Shown: positions 42,015-55,319 of the stretch, one piece after another
How the letters are laid out: every line of letters begins with the position of its first letter
How positions within the stretch are numbered: the stretch's first letter is position 1
Assembly: GCF_000312485.1 (NCBI RefSeq)
Contig: NZ_HE997644.1
Coordinates: forward strand, 364,625-428,624
Length of the DNA stretch: 64,000 nucleotides
Reading direction: 5' to 3'
From: Yersinia massiliensis CCUG 53443
Lineage (GTDB): Bacteria > Pseudomonadota > Gammaproteobacteria > Enterobacterales > Enterobacteriaceae
Made by a program: the position numbers and the translations under genes
The notes under the pieces: model-generated
What the model was told of the DNA's origin: nothing
Database searches by the model: none
What the model saw: the letters and a program-made list of their open reading frames with translations, nothing else

Positions 42015-42101
42015 GCGATGGTGGCGGAATTGGTAGACGCGCTAGCTTCAGGTGTTAGTGTTCTTACGGACGTGAGGGTTCAAGTCCCTCCCTTCGCACC
42101 A
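42015..42101 (+). tRNA. tRNA-Leu (anticodon CAG), copy 1
   Basis: An 87-base class II tRNA with D-loop GGAATTGGTAGACGC, anticodon CAG at tRNA positions 35-37, a long variable arm (GTGTTCTTACGGACG region), T-loop GGTTCAAGTCC and encoded CCA end. Identical to the next two copies and similar to E. coli leuVPQ, which reads CUG codons. Confidence 0.97.
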
Positions 42102-42183
42102 AACAGACTTTTCTTCAGCCATGTTGATTTCAATTAGATTGTTCTCGACAACCCGCAGTACAGATTTATATTGCACAGCACAT

Positions 42184-42270
42184 GCGATGGTGGCGGAATT
42201 GGTAGACGCGCTAGCTTCAGGTGTTAGTGTTCTTACGGACGTGAGGGTTCAAGTCCCTCCCTTCGCACCA
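42184..42270 (+). tRNA. tRNA-Leu (anticodon CAG), copy 2
   Basis: Identical over all 87 bases to copy 1 and separated from it by 82 bases. Probably processed from a common transcript. Confidence 0.97.
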
Positions 42271-42339
42271 AGCTGGTGATATAAATCAACCATATCCTGC
42301 GACTTAACGTTAGCGGATAAGCAGTAAGAAATCATTTGG

Positions 42340-42426
42340 GCGATGGTGGCGGAATTGGTAGACGCGCTAGCTTCAGGTGTTAGTGTTCTTACGGACGTGA
42401 GGGTTCAAGTCCCTCCCTTCGCACCA
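42340..42426 (+). tRNA. tRNA-Leu (anticodon CAG), copy 3
   Basis: Third identical 87-base copy, 69 bases after copy 2. Encoded CCA end at 42424-42426. Confidence 0.97.
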
Positions 42427-42905: not shown

Positions 42906-43164
42906 ATATATCACTCTTTCGCATCCTGCACCATGAAGTTGTCTTCAGCTAGCGTAATGGGGCTTTTCAAAGAAACATCATGATGACAGGTGGAAACAAA
43001 AATGGTAATTTTGACTAAGATTATTCCTAAATCGACACAAAAAGATTCAATAAAAAATAATTACCTAGAAAAACTATTTATCGTGATGCCTAAATAATAA
43101 GGCTTCATGAGGATATTGTTTATTTGTCTACCGACAGCAAGACATTACGCAGAGTGAATTGATT

Positions 43165-44247
43165 ATGAATAGCCACTCCTACGATCAGCTTCTGAAAAGC
43201 AAGCATCGCCTCTCTTTACTGCTTTTTCTATTTCTGAATGCGTCGTCAGCTATTTTTAGTATGATATTACCGTCACCCAAAACACCGGCAATAACATTAC
43301 CAATAGTGATGATCACGGCGATCAGTCTGGGCACTATCGCTTATTTGATTTTAATTTCGAAAAAATATGCTGATAAATTGAATTATTTTTCAATTGTCCT
43401 CGGTGTGTTATGGGCTTGGCAAATCATTCTAAAATATGAATATCTGGGGACGAATGAAAATAATTACTTATTATTCAGTTTATTTACCATTTTCTTTATC
43501 AGCACTATTGCACTCTCCGATAACTTTATCGCCTTTTGCCTGCACACTGCACCAGCGACGTTAGCCGTTATTTTCTTAGATGATTTTCAAAATATCTTCC
43601 GCATTCTATTCACTATTATGCTGCCACTGATTGGCTTTTCTCTTCATCATTTGATGTCACGCCGCAGCGATGATTTTACGCGAAAACTCGTTGCGCACCT
43701 TTACAATGAAAGAGAAAAATTCAGTGATTTGAGCATGATAGACCCTCTTACTAGTTTATATAACCGCCGTGGGTTGGAGAACAAACTTGAAACACTGCTC
43801 GCGCAATCGCCGGGGAATCACTATGTGCTGTTGCTCGATATCGATCATTTTAAGGCCTATAACGATAACTATGGTCACACTATGGGCGATCAAGCGCTGG
43901 TGCGGGTTGCGGCGGCGATTCGTGACGCCGTACGTTCACGGGATATCGTCGTGCGCTATGGTGGTGAAGAGTTTTTAGTGCTGCTGACACATGTCAGTGA
44001 AGAGTATGCCAGCCAACTGGCCGAGCGTGTAAGACAACGGGTATTAGGACTTGATATTCCACATGTTTTTAACCACAAAGTGTCTACGACTGTCACATTA
44101 AGTGCGGGAATATCCCCACTGCAAGCCTACGATTTAGCCTCTTCACTTAAAGCCGCGGATGAAGCACTTTACCGCGCTAAGAAAGATGGTCGCAACAAAG
44201 TCGAATTTGCGGGCAAAGAATTCTCAAATGCTGAGCCCTCACCCTGA
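43165..44247 (+). CDS. hmsT: Membrane diguanylate cyclase, HmsT-like
   Basis: A 360-residue protein with about six hydrophobic helices in the first 165 residues and a GGDEF domain from about 195. The catalytic motif is GGEEF (266-270), with the inhibitory I-site RSRD five residues before it, so it should be an active, product-regulated c-di-GMP synthase. Architecture and position on the same chromosomal block as hmsCDE fit Yersinia HmsT, the cyclase that drives Hms exopolysaccharide biofilm; the name is inferred from context. The start at ATG 43165 was preferred to a TTG two codons earlier. A strong terminator follows. Confidence 0.78.
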   Translation: MNSHSYDQLLKSKHRLSLLLFLFLNASSAIFSMILPSPKTPAITLPIVMITAISLGTIAYLILISKKYADKLNYFSIVLGVLWAWQIILKYEYLGTNENNYLLFSLFTIFFISTIALSDNFIAFCLHTAPATLAVIFLDDFQNIFRILFTIMLPLIGFSLHHLMSRRSDDFTRKLVAHLYNEREKFSDLSMIDPLTSLYNRRGLENKLETLLAQSPGNHYVLLLDIDHFKAYNDNYGHTMGDQALVRVAAAIRDAVRSRDIVVRYGGEEFLVLLTHVSEEYASQLAERVRQRVLGLDIPHVFNHKVSTTVTLSAGISPLQAYDLASSLKAADEALYRAKKDGRNKVEFAGKEFSNAEPSP

Positions 44248-46698: not shown

Positions 46699-46981
46699 TC
46701 TAACGCGTTCCTTTTACACATTATTATCTTTCCACCCCAAATTAAGGGAGTGGAGTCAATAATTCTCCCCCAGTAAGAATAGCGAGCTTAATATATCAAT
46801 ACATTTTTTAATTTTAAATGCTTGCTGAAAGGAAATCTTTGAGATATAAAAAAGCGAAACAAATAAAATAACAAACTAAATCAGTAACGATAAGCGAATT
46901 AATTACCACATAAAGATATCATATTTAGTTCCAATTAATACCAATTATAAATAACACCCTATTCAACAGGATATATAACCT

Positions 46982-47848
46982 ATGAATTTAAAATATAAAA
47001 TAATTGGATTCAATATTAAAGAATTTGGCATTAATATACATGACATGAAAAAAGAGTTACCATTCGATCAGTTATCTTGGGATGATAACGACATAAAGAT
47101 AGCGCAATTAAAGGTTTTAATAAGTCAGAACCCTAACGACAACGATTTAATTTTACAAGAGGCGCAACACTATCTTAACCAAGATATTATCCCTGAAAAT
47201 ATTAAAAATCTGATCTCGATGCTTCCTGCTCATGTTAAACAAACTTTTCATGCTTTTAAGCCATTTAGGAAAAGAAGCATGAGTCAGTTCATTGCTGAGA
47301 ATATTAATAATCAATGGATTATCAGCAATATTGAAATCCCCCTATCAATAGGATTCACTCAACAAGCTGACCACCCATTAGATTTACGACAATTGGCACG
47401 AAGATTCCCCTCAATGGATCGAGCTATCAGTGATTCACCTATATTGAAAAACCTAATTAAGCACTTTGTCGAAATATTGTGTGAATGTGAACAACAAAGG
47501 AACCTAACAAAAATAGGCGTCACTTGTCATCAGATGTCCTTGCTGATAGATAATACCAGCCATTCAGTTTCTAATTCCCCAGAGGGGTTACATCAGGATG
47601 GCAGTGACTATATTGTTTCAGCATTGGTGATTGATAAGCACAATATTGAAGGTGGGACAAGTCAACTTTACTGTACTGAAAAAGAAGATTTTATTAAATC
47701 TCATACCTTAGAACCCGGTGAAGGGTTATTTCATGTTGATAGAAACTCAACTATTTGGCACAAAGTCACACCCATAACATTAAAAGATCCCTTAATCGGA
47801 ACGGGTTATCGGAACATACTTGGTTTTGATTTCAACTATATTTCTTGA
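46982..47848 (+). CDS. Fe(II)/2-oxoglutarate-dependent dioxygenase (amino-acid hydroxylase-like)
   Basis: A 288-residue protein of the 2OG-Fe dioxygenase family that includes free amino-acid hydroxylases such as isoleucine dioxygenase. The iron facial triad is visible as H204-x-D206 (GLHQDGSDYIVSALVI) and H260 (STIWHKVTPI), with R277 (GYRNILGFDF) placed to bind 2-oxoglutarate. The N-terminal 100 residues are Lys/Asn-rich and unassigned. It is the first gene of a six-gene operon preceded by 283 AT-rich bases that probably hold the promoter. Codon use is far more AT-rich than in dhaR, which suggests horizontal acquisition. Substrate unknown. Confidence 0.75.
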   Translation: MNLKYKIIGFNIKEFGINIHDMKKELPFDQLSWDDNDIKIAQLKVLISQNPNDNDLILQEAQHYLNQDIIPENIKNLISMLPAHVKQTFHAFKPFRKRSMSQFIAENINNQWIISNIEIPLSIGFTQQADHPLDLRQLARRFPSMDRAISDSPILKNLIKHFVEILCECEQQRNLTKIGVTCHQMSLLIDNTSHSVSNSPEGLHQDGSDYIVSALVIDKHNIEGGTSQLYCTEKEDFIKSHTLEPGEGLFHVDRNSTIWHKVTPITLKDPLIGTGYRNILGFDFNYIS

Positions 47849-49044
47849 TGATAACCTTAAGCGAAATAAATTTAATGGATATTAAAAGCTCGCAAAAGAA
47901 GAAAGGTATTATATTATCATTTCTATTTTTCATCCATGGGATGGCATACGCCAGCATAGTACCTTGGTTTCCAGAAATAAAATCGGATTTTGAACTGAGT
48001 AATTACATGGTGGGAATCATGGTATCTGCAATACCGGCAGGATCAATAACATTTGGATTACTCTCCAAAAGATTTATTGATCTCATAGGGTTGTATTGGG
48101 CGACAAATATCACCTTCTTACTGCTCATTACGTGTATTTCAATAGTCCCGTTCTCATCGTCATGGCATGGTATAACACTCGCCCTCTTCCTATTTGGTAT
48201 ATTTGACTCATGGGGAGATACCTGTATCAATGTACAAGCTATCCGTGTGCAAAAATCATGTGGCAGAAGCTTAATTAATCGATTTCATGGCATTGGCAGT
48301 ATAGGCACAATCTTCGGAGGAGGAATCGCCGTATCTGCTATTAGCATTGGCCTGTCTATAAAACAGTTTAGCCTTACCGTATTCTGCGGAAATTTATTTT
48401 TGCTGATGCTATTCATTGTCATTTTTAGAGATAAAAACACACAGAAAAAAATATTCACCCGTGAGAAAAACAAACCAAGTCAGCATTACTCAGAAAATCA
48501 ACTTTATTTGATCGCATTAATTTTACTTATTTTCACATGTGGCATAGAGGAAACAGCCAGTATTTGGGGAGCCATATATATGACGGACTATTATGATGTG
48601 TCACCGGCACTTTCTGGCTTACCCTATTTAAGCTGTCAAATATTCATGGTTGTTGGGCGGATTTTTGGTGACCATTTCACTAATAAATTTGGGCGCATCA
48701 CCACGCTAAGATGCGGAGCGATGACTGCAGCAGTGGGCGTATTTGTTATCATGAGTATTCACTCACCAATGTTGACAGTGTTAGGTTTTGCATTAATCGG
48801 TCTCGGCATATCTGTTGTATTTCCATTAACGATATCATTTATTGGCCAGCTCCCTAATATAAATGCCACAAATGGAATCACCTTCGCCACATGGACATCA
48901 AGAATTGGCTTACTACTCACCCCACCATTACTCGGTATGTTGGCCGATATGACATCATTGAGAATCGCCTTTATCACGATATTTATTGGCTGCTTATTTA
49001 TTTTGTTACTCATTAATATCCTATCCAAAAAGTTAATTAGCTAG
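47848..49044 (+). CDS. Major facilitator superfamily transporter
   Basis: A 398-residue protein with about 12 transmembrane helices, resembling the YbjJ/FucP-like MFS branch (SWGDTCINVQAIRV, NRFHGIGSIGTIFGGG, RIFGDHFTNKFGRITTLR). It is probably the exporter, and perhaps the self-protection, of the cluster product. The ATG overlaps the preceding stop (TGATG), so translation is coupled to the dioxygenase. An alternative start ten codons on has a poor ribosome site. Confidence 0.82.
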   Translation: MITLSEINLMDIKSSQKKKGIILSFLFFIHGMAYASIVPWFPEIKSDFELSNYMVGIMVSAIPAGSITFGLLSKRFIDLIGLYWATNITFLLLITCISIVPFSSSWHGITLALFLFGIFDSWGDTCINVQAIRVQKSCGRSLINRFHGIGSIGTIFGGGIAVSAISIGLSIKQFSLTVFCGNLFLLMLFIVIFRDKNTQKKIFTREKNKPSQHYSENQLYLIALILLIFTCGIEETASIWGAIYMTDYYDVSPALSGLPYLSCQIFMVVGRIFGDHFTNKFGRITTLRCGAMTAAVGVFVIMSIHSPMLTVLGFALIGLGISVVFPLTISFIGQLPNINATNGITFATWTSRIGLLLTPPLLGMLADMTSLRIAFITIFIGCLFILLLINILSKKLIS

Positions 49045-49066
49045 AGCGTTAATCTCAGGAGATAAA

Positions 49067-50467
49067 ATGAAGAAGATGAAATGGGCTGTTATATCAGGAG
49101 ATGGTCTCCCAACCAGTGGACTGCTCACCATTTTTAGAAATGTGGTAGAAATTGCCATGAAAAAAAATACCATTGTAAATGAGATACCTGCCGATCTTGG
49201 ATTTTCTTGGCGGCCGGACAAGAAATACTTTTTTCCCGCTGGCAGCCAAAAATCACACTATCCCACCTGGATGAAAGTCAGCACCATCCAGCGGCCATCA
49301 GCCTGTAGTGATATTTATGCAGACAAACTTTTAAATATTCGACATCAAGTTGCACACTATGACTCATTAACCAGTACTGAAGTGAATGAAATAGAAGCAG
49401 AGATAGCGTCAATTGCTGATGAGTATGAAACATATTTCATTAATTGGTTTGAGCAAAATGCGATTGATTGGGTTTTTTGCTTAAATCTAACCTTATCTGA
49501 TGCAACACCAGTCACGCTCGCCCTTCACCGTGCTGCAAAAAAGTATTGGGGGACTAAGGAGAGCGGAGGCGTCATTTTTTGGGATCATGACCTTTTTGGC
49601 AGTTATGCCATTTATGAAAATGAAGATAGGTTATATCCTCAATTACCGAATTCCTTAACCCCGATACCACAGGATAGTCCCTATACTCAATGGATAGTGG
49701 CTTCCGAAGCGCTGGCTGATGAATGCAAAGACTACCCAACAAAAATTAAGCCGCTTGTTATCCCCAATATTTTGCCTGAAATTGAGCATCCTGATTTCAG
49801 AGAGAGACATGCTGCATTCTTAAGCCAGCATCATATACCAACAGGCTCAACGGTTATTCTTGTTCCTGTTAGAGTATTCAGAGTCAAAGGCATCGAAATA
49901 TCAATTAGTGTATTTAATGAATTATTAAATATTTATAGCGAGAAATCATTATGCAAACCGAAATTATTGATATTTGGTAATATGAATGAAGATCCTGAAT
50001 ATGCATCTGAATTGATGGAACAAGTAGAGTTTCTTAAGCTACATGATGACCTTATTTTTTTAGATGAAGTTCCGCTGCAAACTTATCAGGACGAAGAGAA
50101 TAAATGGCATTTAGATGAGATTGATTTACTCATTATTTGTCATGCTTTATCAGGTGCCGTTTTATTTACCCCCAATGTAGACAATGTCGAAAGTGTCGGT
50201 TTAGGCCCAGCCCTTGCCGCTATTGCCGGCGTTCCTTGCGCCGTGACATCCTATTCTGCCTTTACTGAGTTTTATGGTCATGAATACCATCATATAAAAG
50301 TGCTACAAGATCACCCGCGGGACGCAGCACAACAATTATTTGAGTCGATGTATTGCCATGCTATGGGTGACGAAAATCTCAAAACATTATTAGCTAATAA
50401 TAAACTATTGGTGCAAAAAAGATTCCCTCAAACCCCTTGGGAGAAATTTATCAGCCGATTGCAATAA
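49067..50467 (+). CDS. GT4-like glycosyltransferase
   Basis: A 466-residue retaining-type glycosyltransferase candidate. The N-terminal domain begins WAVISGDGLPTSGLLTIFRN (acceptor-side glycine loop). The C-terminal Rossmann domain has STVILVPVRVFRVKGIE (the R-x-x-K-G donor-phosphate pattern, about 265-281) and VESVGLGPALAAIAGVP with an E375-x7 pattern at the sugar-nucleotide site. No membrane helix, so cytosolic. AGGAGA lies four bases before the ATG. Third gene of the cluster; donor and acceptor unknown. Confidence 0.7.
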   Translation: MKKMKWAVISGDGLPTSGLLTIFRNVVEIAMKKNTIVNEIPADLGFSWRPDKKYFFPAGSQKSHYPTWMKVSTIQRPSACSDIYADKLLNIRHQVAHYDSLTSTEVNEIEAEIASIADEYETYFINWFEQNAIDWVFCLNLTLSDATPVTLALHRAAKKYWGTKESGGVIFWDHDLFGSYAIYENEDRLYPQLPNSLTPIPQDSPYTQWIVASEALADECKDYPTKIKPLVIPNILPEIEHPDFRERHAAFLSQHHIPTGSTVILVPVRVFRVKGIEISISVFNELLNIYSEKSLCKPKLLIFGNMNEDPEYASELMEQVEFLKLHDDLIFLDEVPLQTYQDEENKWHLDEIDLLIICHALSGAVLFTPNVDNVESVGLGPALAAIAGVPCAVTSYSAFTEFYGHEYHHIKVLQDHPRDAAQQLFESMYCHAMGDENLKTLLANNKLLVQKRFPQTPWEKFISRLQ

Positions 50468-50536
50468 TACTTAGACACTTAATTAAAAAACAATACTCCA
50501 TTAACAATAATGAGTTTTGCTATTAAAGGATATAAA

Positions 50537-52039
50537 ATGAATATTACTGTTGCTAATACACAATATCGTCAAGGCCATATCCCCACTGATATTAATATTC
50601 TTATTCTAGGTGCTGGAATGTCTGGTTTAGAACTTGCCAAAAATTTAAGCCAACGAGACGCTAAGGACGTTGTTGTGATTGACGTGGGGCCTGCTGATGA
50701 CTGCTGCCATATCAATGCAGGAGAGCAATTTCAGAATGCTGATAAATTTTGGAAAAATGAAGAATACGATCGCTATGCTTATCGGCCATGGCATTCGTTA
50801 AGTGAACCTCATTTTTCAAAGGGAAGCTGCCTACGGCGAAGAGTCGGCGGCCGATCACTCTATTGGCATGGGGTCATTCTCCCAATAGAGGCTGCTGCTC
50901 TCAAGTTCTGGCCTTCACAGATAGTGAGTGACCTTACCGAAACTTGGCAAGGTGGCCCTCCACTTTATTCGCAGGTGCAATCTGAAATATTAGCTTGGGC
51001 CGGAAAGTATCATGACACAAATACCGTATTCAAATTTGCTGGCTTTGAATTTAAAATTACGCCTCAGGCAACCCGCAATGTTGATTCGCTTGGCCGTTGG
51101 GAAGCCTATTCACCCTTATCCTTTTGGCAAGCAGCAGAACACACTAAATATCTTCCCCCCATCATTTCTGGCTATGAAGCTGTGTCATTGATAACCCAAA
51201 ATGGTCACTGCACTGGCGCGAAATTAAGAAACGTAACATCAAATGAAATACACCATGTGTTTGCCAATAAATGCATTCTCGCATTAGGCACAATTGAAAA
51301 TACACGGTTAGCCGCTCAGGAACTTTATAATACGGGGCATTTGATAGAGAAAAAAATGACGGGTCTTGTGGACCACATCGTTCAAGGTTTTAATGTGACA
51401 CTTGAGTTCCAAAAAGTCCCTGTCATGCTCAAAGCATTACTGGAAAATCATCCAGATTCCATCTTCTATAGCCCTAGCCGCTCAGGTGAACGATTCAATT
51501 TATTCTTTACTCTTAGCCAATCAAGATTCGGCGTTGAATTAGAAGTGTGGACAATGGGTGAACAGGTTCCTTCGGAGAAAAGCTATATCAAGGTAGAAGA
51601 ATATGATGATGTTGCCCCATTACTCATCTCGTGCACTTTGAGTCATGAAGACAATGAGTTAATCCACAGAGAGCAAGATGAACTTAATTTATTTTGGGAT
51701 AAATTATGCCAACAAATAAAAATCCCCTTCTCACCTTTAGCCTTTGATGGCGGATTCAGTGTCCATGCCCGAACCATGGGTGATGTCTATTATGAGTTTC
51801 ATTCCCCCTCAAGAACCGTTAATTATTTTGTCCCTGCAACATGGATAAGCCCATTAGGGACAGAAAACCATGAAAGTAGCACGCTACCTTTAGGAGAAAT
51901 TCTGGATGCACAACACAAATTCAATGACCTCAATAATCTTTATGCTGTTGGTCCCAGTGCATTCCCGCGTCCCGGTGCGGCGAACCCGTCGTTAACCACA
52001 CTCGCACTTTCACGTCGACTCGCTGCAATTTTAAGTTAA
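50537..52039 (+). CDS. GMC-type FAD-dependent oxidoreductase
   Basis: A 500-residue flavoprotein. The FAD-binding GAGMSG is at residues 25-30, followed by VVVIDVGP with its acidic ribose ligand. VGGRSLYWHGVIL corresponds to the GMC GGSS-type loop, and the C-terminus AVGPSAFPRPGAANPSLTTLALSRRLA is the typical second FAD segment. Such enzymes oxidise sugar or alcohol hydroxyls; the 6'-dehydrogenases of aminoglycoside pathways belong to this superfamily. AAAGGATATAAA precedes the chosen ATG; one nine codons earlier lacks a ribosome site. Substrate not predictable. Confidence 0.75.
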   Translation: MNITVANTQYRQGHIPTDINILILGAGMSGLELAKNLSQRDAKDVVVIDVGPADDCCHINAGEQFQNADKFWKNEEYDRYAYRPWHSLSEPHFSKGSCLRRRVGGRSLYWHGVILPIEAAALKFWPSQIVSDLTETWQGGPPLYSQVQSEILAWAGKYHDTNTVFKFAGFEFKITPQATRNVDSLGRWEAYSPLSFWQAAEHTKYLPPIISGYEAVSLITQNGHCTGAKLRNVTSNEIHHVFANKCILALGTIENTRLAAQELYNTGHLIEKKMTGLVDHIVQGFNVTLEFQKVPVMLKALLENHPDSIFYSPSRSGERFNLFFTLSQSRFGVELEVWTMGEQVPSEKSYIKVEEYDDVAPLLISCTLSHEDNELIHREQDELNLFWDKLCQQIKIPFSPLAFDGGFSVHARTMGDVYYEFHSPSRTVNYFVPATWISPLGTENHESSTLPLGEILDAQHKFNDLNNLYAVGPSAFPRPGAANPSLTTLALSRRLAAILS

Positions 52040-52065
52040 TGCAATAATAAATAAGGATATTCATT

Positions 52066-53796
52066 ATGTGCAAATCTATCTACATTCTTGGTACTGCTTT
52101 ATCCCATGATGGTTCAACCTGTTTAATGAAAGACGGTGAGATTATTGTCGCCATTGAAAAAGAAAGATTATCCAGAATTAAACATGACGGTTTTAATGAT
52201 AATGACACTATCCAATACTGTTTAGATGCGGCAGGTATTGGGTACCAAGATCTCTCACTGATCGTCGAACAGAACTCGTTTAATCCATTATTCAGCGAAC
52301 AATTAACACAGCGAAAAAATAGAATCTTACCCCCTCTGGTCCCTGTTGTGAGTATTTCACATCATTTGGCTCATGCTTACAGTGCAGTGGGAACATCACC
52401 TTTTGATAATATGGGCGTCGTGGTTATCGATGGGCATGGTGGTAGCTTGGATAGCTGCAATGACCTTGTTGATAATATCGACGGTGCAAACAAGATTAAT
52501 ATTCATCAGCGCTACCGTTACTGGGAAACCTGTAGCTACTATGTTTACCAAAATGGCAGCATGAAGCCTATATTCAAAGACTTCTCCCGCTGGGTAAATA
52601 GGAAGAATAGGCGAAACTTTCCCGTATCGACGTGGGAAATAGAGAATTCTCTGGGTGAGTTTTATGAAGGTATCGCGCTGTATATTTTTGGTGAACTCGA
52701 TTGCGCGGGTAAATTGATGGGGCTGGCGCCTTATGGGCGGCCTGATGTGATTGATTGGGATCCGTTCTATTTCGATGCCGGTAAAGTGGTGCTACGCAAT
52801 GAATGGTGGGCAAATATTGATCCACTGCTTAACACCCATCCGGGGCACTTTAGAGATAACTTCCAATATTATTCCGATATCGCTTACTGGGCGCAATCCA
52901 AACTTGAGGAGGCATTGTCGTATCTGTTTAATTATTATTATCAGCTTCATCCAATGAAAAACTTTGCCTATGCCGGCGGCGTTGCCTTAAATGCCACAGC
53001 AAATGAGAAGCTGATTCACGGATGCGAGTTTGAAAATCTCTATATTCAACCTGCGGCAGGGGACAATGGTCTTTCTATTGGTTGTTGTTATTACGGCTGG
53101 TTAGAGGTACTGAAGAAAGAGCGCGTCAAGCATTCAGGCTCAACGTATTTTGGTCAACATTATGATGACGCCCAGATAGCCCAAGAACTTGAGCAATACA
53201 CCGAGAGCATTGAGTACAGCTATTATGATGATATTGAAACCCTCGCGGCAAAATCCATTGCAGCAGGCAATGTTATTGGCTGGTTTCAGGGAGGTGCAGA
53301 GTTTGGGCCTCGAGCCTTAGGTAACAGAAGCATTTTGGCTGACCCACGTCATCCCGCCATGAGAGATCATATTAATGCCGATGTGAAGTATCGAGAGGAT
53401 TTTCGGCCTTTTGCCCCTGCTGTTTTACACGAAAAAGTGCGTGACTATTTCGAGATAGATCATGACAGCGACTACATGCTCTTTATTGCACAGGTCAAAG
53501 AACAATATCGTGCAGACTTACCCGCCATTGTCCATGTTGATGGAAGTGCGCGTGTGCAAACCGTTAAAAAAGAAATGAATGCTAAATTCCATCGCTTGTT
53601 AACATCCTTTTATGAACAGACGCAGATGCCAATTCTGCTTAATACCTCATTGAATATCAAAGGAATGCCGATCGTTGAAACACCTAGCGATGCCATCAAG
53701 CTATTTTTAAGCTGTGGATTAGATCTGTTGTTTATCAATCACTATAGGATAACCAAAAAAGCGCCGCTCAATCACGTTGAGAGAGTATCGATATAA
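52066..53796 (+). CDS. NodU/TobZ-family O-carbamoyltransferase
   Basis: A 576-residue carbamoyltransferase that should transfer carbamoyl from carbamoyl phosphate (through carbamoyl-adenylate) to a hydroxyl. The N-terminal kinase-like YrdC/Kae1-type fold has the metal motif HHLAHAYSA (H99, H103) and IDGHGG (D122), the same spacing as in TobZ. The C-terminal domain has GWFQGGAEFGPRALGNRSI, INADVKYREDFRPFAPAVL and NTSLNIKGMPIVETPSDA. Length is as in the family. Core gene of the cluster and the best clue to the product: an O-carbamoylated sugar or glycoside. Confidence 0.88.
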   Translation: MCKSIYILGTALSHDGSTCLMKDGEIIVAIEKERLSRIKHDGFNDNDTIQYCLDAAGIGYQDLSLIVEQNSFNPLFSEQLTQRKNRILPPLVPVVSISHHLAHAYSAVGTSPFDNMGVVVIDGHGGSLDSCNDLVDNIDGANKINIHQRYRYWETCSYYVYQNGSMKPIFKDFSRWVNRKNRRNFPVSTWEIENSLGEFYEGIALYIFGELDCAGKLMGLAPYGRPDVIDWDPFYFDAGKVVLRNEWWANIDPLLNTHPGHFRDNFQYYSDIAYWAQSKLEEALSYLFNYYYQLHPMKNFAYAGGVALNATANEKLIHGCEFENLYIQPAAGDNGLSIGCCYYGWLEVLKKERVKHSGSTYFGQHYDDAQIAQELEQYTESIEYSYYDDIETLAAKSIAAGNVIGWFQGGAEFGPRALGNRSILADPRHPAMRDHINADVKYREDFRPFAPAVLHEKVRDYFEIDHDSDYMLFIAQVKEQYRADLPAIVHVDGSARVQTVKKEMNAKFHRLLTSFYEQTQMPILLNTSLNIKGMPIVETPSDAIKLFLSCGLDLLFINHYRITKKAPLNHVERVSI

Positions 53797-53886
53797 GTCA
53801 TGCCGCAATTAATTGTATTACGAGAAATCATATTGCTAGAAATCATCGCGTTATAAATAACATTATTCTCAACATCAGGAGGTTAT

Positions 53887-55278
53887 ATGCCAAGGAACAG
53901 GCCATCAAATGACGACACCAACACACTGAAAGTGGGCGTTATTCATCTAGCCACTGAAGGTATTCAACTCTTTGTCGGTGGGGTGGGGTCTTTTATTCGA
54001 GGGCAGGTTGAAGCCTTGCCTGAGGTTATTGAGCTATTGGCTGCTCACCACATTATTTTGCAGCCTCATTTTATTGAGATTGCCTGTAGCCGATATCATT
54101 GTTCTTTTAATGAAGAGCGTCGTGCCCATTATATTCGCCACATTCAAGCGATGGGTGGATCTTTCTCTACCGTTCCCAATATGACAATAGGAAACGGCGC
54201 GAATTGTTCTTGGCCCTATGGTGATGCATTTCTGGGTAATTTGCAGAACTGGCAAGTATCCTCTGCCGCTGGCGCGGCAAAAATCATCGATATCTGCGCA
54301 AATTACGATATTACGTTGGCTTTTTGTCATGAGTTGCCCTTCTCATTGACGCCGTTAATTGCACGTCTGCAAGCCGCCATCGAAGGGGTGAATTTAAAAG
54401 TTATTTTTGTTTCTCATGGCACGGCATTTAACCATGAAATGCCATTGCCCAACCCTGAGCGCTTAATGGCGGAATCCTTACCCGTCCACTGGGCCAAAAT
54501 TGACACGAATATTAAACTCGGTTTTATCAGCCAATTTATGGCGACTCACTTAGTGGCTGAATATGGTGCTGACCCACAGGGTTTTGTTCCGGTACTGGCG
54601 GGAATAGATATTGACGATCCTTGGTTTCGGCTGCGCAGTGATCAGGTGATAAGCCATACGCTGTTAAAATATGGCATACCGCTAGACCGCCCTTTAGCCA
54701 TCACACTTGGAAGGGGAGTACAGTACAAACGTCATGATTTATTACTCAAAGCGAGCTGCTTGCTGAATAATGATATCCATCCGGTGATTGTCAGTGACCC
54801 TGTTTTACCCGAATTAATACACTTAGCACAATCAACACAATTAGCACTGTCAACACAATTAGCCAGCCAGCTCGCGAGCCCACCCACCATAATTAACTCA
54901 TTCGATCGAGAACTCATGGCGTGCTTGATTCAATGGCACAACACACGTGTTTGTGTTCTATCTGCCGAAAATGAGCCTAATGGCTTAATCCCAATGGAAG
55001 CACGTTGGTTAGCCAGGAAACAGGGAGCTTTGCTAGTGGTTGCTGACTCAGGTGGGTTAAGTGAGCAAGTGACTCCGGATATTGATGGATTCCGGCATAT
55101 CGCGGGAGATGCAGAAAATCTTGCCTGTGTGATACAGCAGATTTGCACATTATCTGACGTAGAAATAAGCCATATTCGCCAAGCGGGCGCGGCATTAATC
55201 AAAGCGCGCTATCAGTGGAAAAATCAAATCATGGCATCTTTGGCAAGTTTGATCCCTGAAATCGCAACCCTTCACTAA
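53887..55278 (+). CDS. GT4-like glycosyltransferase, second copy
   Basis: A 463-residue glycosyltransferase. The N-terminal domain has LFVGGVGSFIRGQVEAL (glycine-rich acceptor loop). The C-terminal Rossmann domain has LGRGVQYKRHDLLLKA (donor-phosphate Lys) and ENEPNGLIPMEARWLA with the E363-x7-E371 pattern of GT4 enzymes. A short duplicated stretch AQSTQLALSTQLASQLAS (about 316-333) reflects local DNA repeats. AGGAGGT lies six bases before the ATG. Less AT-rich than the first genes of the cluster. Last gene of the operon, 41 bases from the convergent dhaM. Unlike the first glycosyltransferase in sequence, so two distinct sugar transfers are likely. Confidence 0.72.
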   Translation: MPRNRPSNDDTNTLKVGVIHLATEGIQLFVGGVGSFIRGQVEALPEVIELLAAHHIILQPHFIEIACSRYHCSFNEERRAHYIRHIQAMGGSFSTVPNMTIGNGANCSWPYGDAFLGNLQNWQVSSAAGAAKIIDICANYDITLAFCHELPFSLTPLIARLQAAIEGVNLKVIFVSHGTAFNHEMPLPNPERLMAESLPVHWAKIDTNIKLGFISQFMATHLVAEYGADPQGFVPVLAGIDIDDPWFRLRSDQVISHTLLKYGIPLDRPLAITLGRGVQYKRHDLLLKASCLLNNDIHPVIVSDPVLPELIHLAQSTQLALSTQLASQLASPPTIINSFDRELMACLIQWHNTRVCVLSAENEPNGLIPMEARWLARKQGALLVVADSGGLSEQVTPDIDGFRHIAGDAENLACVIQQICTLSDVEISHIRQAGAALIKARYQWKNQIMASLASLIPEIATLH

Positions 55279-55319
55279 TGCAGGGCTGCGTTTCACACTG
55301 CTTATTGCAGCGGTTATTT

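Follow-up and report, generated by a model that had tools for sequence, protein, structure and literature searches.

What is the AT-rich, six-gene cluster that lies between dhaR and dhaMLK in Yersinia massiliensis CCUG 53443, and do its genes work together? We examined it in a 64,000-nucleotide (nt) stretch of the forward strand of contig NZ_HE997644.1 (assembly GCF_000312485.1, positions 364,625 to 428,624), which we call the window and whose numbering is used throughout. A first-pass annotation, made from the DNA letters alone, had read the cluster as a compact, tailoring-type pathway forming one unit. By following the genes across the genus, we found that the locus is one conserved and selected unit, restricted to Yersinia in the samples taken, and it is very probably a unit for the biosynthesis of a small molecule. 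For the fuller reading, that is a single operon, acquired once and early, which makes a small exported glycoside by the steps proposed below, we consider the balance to be even.

The six open reading frames (ORFs) are all on the + strand and run in one direction (46982-47848, 47845-49044, 49067-50467, 50510-52039, 52066-53796 and 53887-55278). The first two are joined by a TGATG stop/start overlap and the following junctions are gaps of 22, 42, 26 and 90 nt, in line with the overlaps and short gaps reported at first pass. By scanning the six proteins with Pfam and NCBIfam, we recovered the same six family assignments. The features are as follows:

46982..47848, + strand: DiOx, a 2-oxoglutarate (2OG)-Fe(II) dioxygenase of PF10014 (93.5 bits; cut-off 23.1)
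47848..49044, + strand: major facilitator superfamily (MFS) transporter, PF07690 (111 bits; cut-off 33.4)
49067..50467, + strand: GT_A, a predicted GT-B-fold glycosyltransferase (GT), by PF00534 and a Foldseek match to BshA
50510..52039, + strand: GMC-family FAD oxidoreductase, GMC_oxred_C (26.8 bits; cut-off 24.6)
52066..53796, + strand: carbamoyltransferase (CT) of the TobZ/NodU O-carbamoyltransferase type, PF16861 (237.7 bits) and PF02543 (107.6 bits)
53887..55278, + strand: GT_B, a GT4 glycosyltransferase resembling LmbT, PF00534 (29.1 bits; cut-off 26.4)
46812..46852, + strand: promoter-like block, by conservation in 17 upstream sequences, about 130 nt 5' of the first start codon
55297..55314, + strand: terminator-like hairpin with a T-rich tail, between GT_B and the convergent dhaM

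The MFS gene is given from the ATG at 47848, inside the TGATG overlap, and its listed ORF begins at TTG 47845; the GMC start at 50510 is that of the listed ORF, with an internal ATG at 50537 as a possible alternative. The window holds no other ORF of at least 100 amino acids between dhaR and dhaM, and none of the six is a regulator gene.

A CT search of 25 species-level Yersinia genomes gave matches in 20. Since the match in G024 is a distant second CT only, there are 19 carriers of the CT orthologue among the 25, namely the window itself and 18 others at 76-98% identity to it. All six genes stand together and in the same order in 17 of these 19 carriers; in the two others (L038 and L043) the contig begins inside GT_A. 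The comparison of neighbourhoods across Yersinia proposed at first pass thus returned six co-occurring genes in one order. The genes that we take to be dhaMLK follow the cluster in every carrier (19/19). Of the 17 carriers that could be judged on this point, 16 have dhaR ahead of the cluster; no dhaR was found in the stretch from G017 (L031). Y. aleksiciae NZ_CP011975.1 carries the cluster as well (L026). Among the six non-carriers, five have dhaR facing dhaM with no gene of the cluster in between: directly so in G009, G016, G020 and G021, and with a pectinesterase gene between the two in G024. The sixth, G022, has a contig that breaks off in a damaged-looking dhaM (L066:7835-8404).

The same site showed other variable content. 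In five of the eight loci inspected (L034, L037, L039, L042 and L045), a pectinesterase-like ORF separates dhaR from the cluster or from dhaM; the window has none, and Pfam identified the family in L045 only (L045:4226-5308). Beyond dhaK, a second carbamoyltransferase locus is present in G001, G010, G017, G023 and G024 (L031, L038, L042, L044 and L045), of which G024 is without the six-gene cluster. In L045:10716-14592 Pfam identifies it as a nitroreductase-like protein, a CT and an MFS protein in tandem, and in L031 its CT is made of two ORFs. An additional distant CT is found elsewhere in the G003 genome.

To what extent has the cluster been kept by selection? Using 15 to 19 rows per cluster gene, we obtained median pairwise ratios of nonsynonymous to synonymous rates (dN/dS) of 0.053-0.132 for the six genes, with dS saturated, and 0.053-0.171 in the close pair formed by the window and L027. 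Rows were excluded for coverage below 85%, an internal stop or identity below 50%, and L026 was removed because it duplicates L029. The corresponding medians for the dha genes were 0.018-0.078, with dhaR, dhaL and dhaK at 0.018-0.030. The cluster is under purifying selection.

Its history follows that of its neighbours. First, all 9 starred carrier clades of the dha tree (24 rows) reappear, again with a star, in the cluster tree, which was built from 19 rows of which three are incomplete. L031/L044, a pair without a star, is not recovered there; L044 is a long, half-filled row. Second, pairwise distances of cluster and dha genes are correlated (r 0.74), a value reached in 0 of 2000 permutations. 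Third, presence and absence of the cluster on the dha tree need two changes, for which the natural reading, on a tree rooted at its midpoint only, is a single gain once the deepest clade (G009, G016 and G021) had split off, with a later loss. We propose that the operon was gained once, early in Yersinia, at the convergent dhaR/dhaMLK junction, and would then have been inherited mainly vertically with some losses.

Does the cluster occur elsewhere? Profile searches were run on even samples of genomes from the order, class and phylum, not on whole groups. Of 394 genomes of the order, three, all Yersinia, matched the GT_A profile at 1e-10; of 369 genomes of the class, one did so at 1e-6, the window's own. 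With GMC, the profile found the window's own genome only among 398 of the phylum (1e-30) and two among 295 of the order (1e-15), both Yersinia; with GT_B, it found one of 247 in the order (1e-30) and one of 229 in the class (1e-15), in each case the window's own genome. Among the genomes sampled, orthologues of GT_A, GMC and GT_B were thus not found outside Yersinia. A GMC pattern scan of genome contigs returned one locus, in Y. aleksiciae, a result of little weight as known carriers were missed or not in the set. GT_A had 0 matches in 72,556 plasmid records, GT_B matched seven plasmid records at 21-22%, and DiOx matched ten, none covering 80% of its length. When seven plasmid loci (two with GMC and five with CT matches) were searched by tblastn, only the query's own match was recovered, together with two MFS proteins at about 22% in one locus. 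E. coli genomes had no DNA match to 49067-53793 at megablast sensitivity.

We also found a conserved block upstream of the cluster. In the window it comprises TTGCTG at 46822-46827, a 17-nt spacer holding ATCTTTGAGA, and TATAAA at 46845-46850; across sequences it reads TTGC[C/T]G, 17 nt, TATAAA, and is conserved in 17/17 upstream sequences aligned. Mean conservation over 25 columns peaks at 0.92 in the block, and none of the 262 overlapping 25-column segments taken elsewhere upstream in these sequences exceeds 0.78; the upstream region is otherwise divergent and AT-rich (18-30% GC over 320 nt). The 5.05 Mb genome holds a single match to the block at up to 3 mismatches, and a reversed control gave 0. 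These features suggest that the block is the promoter of the operon. A generic scan for promoters and terminators gave sites no more numerous than in shuffled sequence; it missed the block because the -35 element of the latter matches at only 3/6 positions. Likewise, the hairpin scan returned 6 in the region against 7.1 expected by shuffling, so that the position of 55297..55314 is the sole support for this putative terminator. Thus the one-unit claim made at first pass stands on synteny, purifying selection, a common phylogeny and a private, conserved promoter-like block.

It had also been noted that the first genes are more AT-rich than the flanks, and the composition bears this out: the 1-kb segment 47000-47999 has a GC of 0.347 and the segment 54000-54999 a GC of 0.456, whereas segments of this size over the flanking dha genes have 0.48-0.55. 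Averaged over the loci used, GC rises from 0.334 for the dioxygenase to 0.431 for GT_B, with dha genes at 0.51-0.52. Recent acquisition, to which the AT-richness might point, is not supported, and a recent island was rejected on the tree, in which the locus is old within Yersinia. As for the wider surroundings, Rfam found nothing but tRNAs between 42 and 60 kb of the window. Upstream of dhaR lie three tandem tRNA-Leu (CAG) genes (42015-42426) and, between these and dhaR, a putative GGDEF-type protein (43159-44247).

What could such a set of enzymes make? We infer every reaction, substrate, transport direction and role discussed below from sequence. DiOx keeps the HxD...H motif in 12/12 aligned orthologues and carries a conserved N-terminal extension of about 93 amino acids (46982-47260) that lies outside PF10014 and has no convincing match. 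A weak similarity to Cap4/SAVED proteins (E 0.0016 and 0.011), spanning residues 47-165, was discarded as probable chance. HilB, another PF10014 member, hydroxylates an isoleucine derivative, 4'-hydroxyisoleucine, according to PMC3684760. DiOx shares family and HxD...H with HilB and the isoleucine dioxygenases, but it falls far under the HilB equivalog cut-off (21 bits against 350) and has the extra N-terminal region. The dioxygenase would hydroxylate a free amino acid or a similar zwitterion.

GT_B retains EX7E in 12/12 aligned orthologues and aligns with the 8ixp/8ixq and 8il0/8ila chains (8ixp/8il0, E 4e-23 over residues 18-449). In the review PMC12945683, which also underlies the contacts named below, 8ILA is LmbT, an enzyme that transfers GDP (guanosine diphosphate)-octose to the ergothioneine thiol; its Arg260 touches the diphosphate as well as the carboxylate of the acceptor, whose trimethylammonium group is contacted by Trp101. 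LmbT residues were mapped onto GT_B through the 8ixp alignment, and all 12 positions checked agree with the residue letters given there. First, the acceptor contacts Trp101 and Arg260 correspond to Trp109 and Arg276 of GT_B, invariant in 12/12. Second, the GDP pocket is not retained in any of the 12 orthologues: the guanosine contacts Trp258, Thr289, Arg290 and Gln313 are Leu274, Ser303, Asp304 (Glu in 2/12) and Phe339. Third, among the octose contacts Gly27 is retained, Tyr31 corresponds to Phe36 (Phe in 2/12, Tyr in 10/12), and Phe161, Ser222, Gly339 and Val341 correspond to His177, Ala238, Asn365 and Leu367, which differ in 12/12. Because the acceptor contacts are kept and the GDP pocket is changed, we infer that GT_B uses an amino-acid-like acceptor and a donor unlike that of LmbT. 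It might attach a sugar to the hydroxylated acceptor, gripping the latter with Trp109 and Arg276. GT_B further shares with LmbT/CcbT the N-terminal stretch EG.Q...GGV, as well as the equivalents of Gly27, Trp101 and Arg260; in contrast, Pfam and NCBIfam name none of the other five cluster proteins as lincosamide enzymes. That the aglycone is of the amino-acid type remains a tentative proposal, which we hold to be somewhat less probable than its negation.

The first glycosyltransferase, GT_A, scores 19.6 bits in the window, under the Pfam cut-off of 26.4, and PF00534 matches its orthologues in 12/12 cases at E<=0.01. Its predicted model has a mean confidence (pLDDT) of 71.9, with 75 of 466 residues below 50 and low N-terminal parts; Foldseek places the GlcNAc-malate synthase BshA on top (E 8e-12, TM about 0.5), with MshA, TreT, WaaG and PimA also among the matches, so the model points to a GT-B fold. 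BshA is the nearest solved fold, with MshA lower in the list, but identity between BshA and GT_A is 13-16% and GT_A is without EX7E. Indeed, Leu383 replaces the second Glu of this motif in 12/12 aligned orthologues, and the first-pass statement that catalytic motifs are intact therefore does not hold for all six proteins. A match to a HEPN model in 1/12 members was discarded as probable chance. We propose that GT_A attaches a further sugar unit or makes that unit beforehand. That BshA acts on malate and HilB on an isoleucine derivative was counted in favour of the proposed pathway.

The GMC protein carries the GxGxxG and HxxxTxxxG motifs and the Asn stretch, whose roles in this family are established; one of 12 orthologues reads GTENHEGCTLPLG, with His and Thr retained. 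It bears a His454/Asn492 pair, and its HExxTxxxG and GAANPSLT stretches are retained and partly aligned with pyranose oxidase. In its C-terminal part GMC resembles bacterial pyranose oxidase/C-glycoside 3-oxidase (9fl2), including the catalytic Asn region, although the HMMER matches are local only. We suggest that it oxidises one sugar (or cyclitol) hydroxyl through His454/Asn492.

In the carbamoyltransferase, Carbam_trans_N and Carbam_trans_C both far exceed their cut-offs (24 and 27 bits), and SHHLAHA and GPRALGNRS, the active-site stretches of the NodU/TobZ family, are conserved in 12/12 aligned orthologues. Its nearest solved relatives are novobiocin carbamoyltransferase (4e-70), 7xb6, GdmN and TobZ (5e-67), and novobiocin carbamoyltransferase, GdmN and TobZ act in antibiotic biosynthesis. 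CT thus has both domains and the active-site stretches of the TobZ and novobiocin-type enzymes (also NodU/NolO), but its best-ranked plasmid match is only 37% identical, all 311 matching plasmid records are below 60%, and the five plasmid CT loci examined have no relatives of the Yersinia GTs or dioxygenase. Phages gave 144 records, again all below 60% identity. CT would carbamoylate a hydroxyl, for example on a sugar, using carbamoyl phosphate and ATP. Finally, the MFS protein would export the product.

How well do other explanations account for the same genes? The one that survives best is an aminoglycoside- or aminocyclitol-type pathway, in which GMC would oxidise a cyclitol or amino sugar from host metabolism. 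GMC had three plasmid matches, in Streptomyces (36%, over 92% of the length), Roseibium (34%) and Eleftheria (25%). The first, in a streptomycin-like aminocyclitol locus on a plasmid of Streptomyces sp. NBC_00853, shares the LGTEDHE and GAANPSLT stretches and adjoins a DegT aminotransferase, a streptomycin biosynthesis protein and an inosamine-phosphate amidinotransferase. The closest solved CTs include TobZ, and GT_B has a weak match to the model of the inositol glycosyltransferase MshA (25.9 bits against a cut-off of 462.5). However, the GMC link comes from a single plasmid record, the Roseibium match sits in a different gene context, and the Streptomyces locus holds no match to the Yersinia CT or GTs within 31 kb. 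Moreover, its aminotransferase and amidinotransferase are not seen in Yersinia: no aminotransferase, amidinotransferase, cyclitol synthase or 2-DOI synthase was found by eye among the ORFs of 44.0-58.5 kb, family scans having covered the six genes. Hence the likeness to aminoglycoside pathways noted at first pass stands for the closest non-Yersinia GMC found and fails for the missing aminotransferase and cyclitol synthase and for GT_B, whose best solved relative is a lincosamide enzyme. We regard this pathway as possible, though unlikely.

Slightly less probable is a surface-glycan or lipid-linked set, in which the GTs and CT would decorate a polysaccharide or lipid-linked oligosaccharide. Two GT4-type enzymes next to a NodU-like CT would fit such a set, as would WaaG and PimA among the Foldseek matches of GT_A; rhizobia are frequent among the best 25 of the 311 plasmid CT matches, one being annotated NolO. 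In contrast, no flippase, polymerase, ligase or priming enzyme was seen by eye among the ORFs of 44.0-58.5 kb (six of them scanned), Pfam finds no membrane domain in either GT (no transmembrane prediction was made), and the nearest solved relative of GT_B works on a soluble small molecule.

A scavenging or catabolic locus, in which the MFS protein would import a plant glycoside for the enzymes to modify, appears improbable. The direction of transport is itself a proposal, the adjoining DhaKLM presumably handles a C3 sugar, and the pectinesterase-like ORF stands by dhaR in five of the eight loci inspected (family scan for L045). Yet the two glycosyltransferases and the carbamoyltransferase, which uses ATP, are enzymes of biosynthesis, no glycosidase or kinase is found by Pfam among the six, and the pectinesterase is not in the window and occurs in the non-carrier G024. 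Unrelated neighbours or a decaying AT-rich island, to which AT-richness, split genes in two carriers and constraint below that of most dha genes might point, are very improbable, being contradicted by the order kept in 17 carriers (a synteny that rules out chance neighbours), the low dN/dS and the conserved promoter-like block.

Several observations weigh against the exported-glycoside operon that we prefer. Selective constraint is weaker on the cluster genes than on dhaR, dhaL and dhaK, and the dha tree, built from genes that adjoin the cluster, is blind to a transfer of the whole region. The MFS gene is split in G012, as are GT_A and GMC in G001 (a draft of 210 contigs), and six of 25 genomes have no CT orthologue, so the product is dispensable. 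Without EX7E, GT_A could be inactive or unusual, and several of its fold matches, such as WaaG and PimA, use lipid-borne acceptors. The predicted model of GMC is poor (pLDDT 32). With respect to GT_B, the alignment has a gap next to the Trp109 match, and GT4 enzymes commonly carry an Arg at the diphosphate site, as with Arg276.

The first-pass annotation had matched the gene set to no characterised system, and we too found no published description of the locus or the gene set, in a search that covered subscription literature thinly and whose silence is not proof. The cluster is apparently an undescribed, genus-level biosynthetic operon of known enzyme families. It is conceivable, at rather less than even likelihood, that most Yersinia species secrete a metabolite of an undescribed class, an oxidised and O-carbamoylated glycoside with a hydroxylated amino acid or a betaine at its core. 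An LmbT-like transferase would assemble it with no nonribosomal peptide or polyketide synthase, and a use in competition, in signalling or in contact with a host would have kept it through much of the history of the genus. Despite the intensive study of Yersinia, a pathway whose CT occurs in 19 of the 25 species-level genomes searched was not found described in the literature covered. As the pathway has no scaffold synthase, it could reveal how a specialised product is derived from a primary metabolite alone, and the locus offers a clear test of the function of LmbT-like transferases outside the lincosamides.

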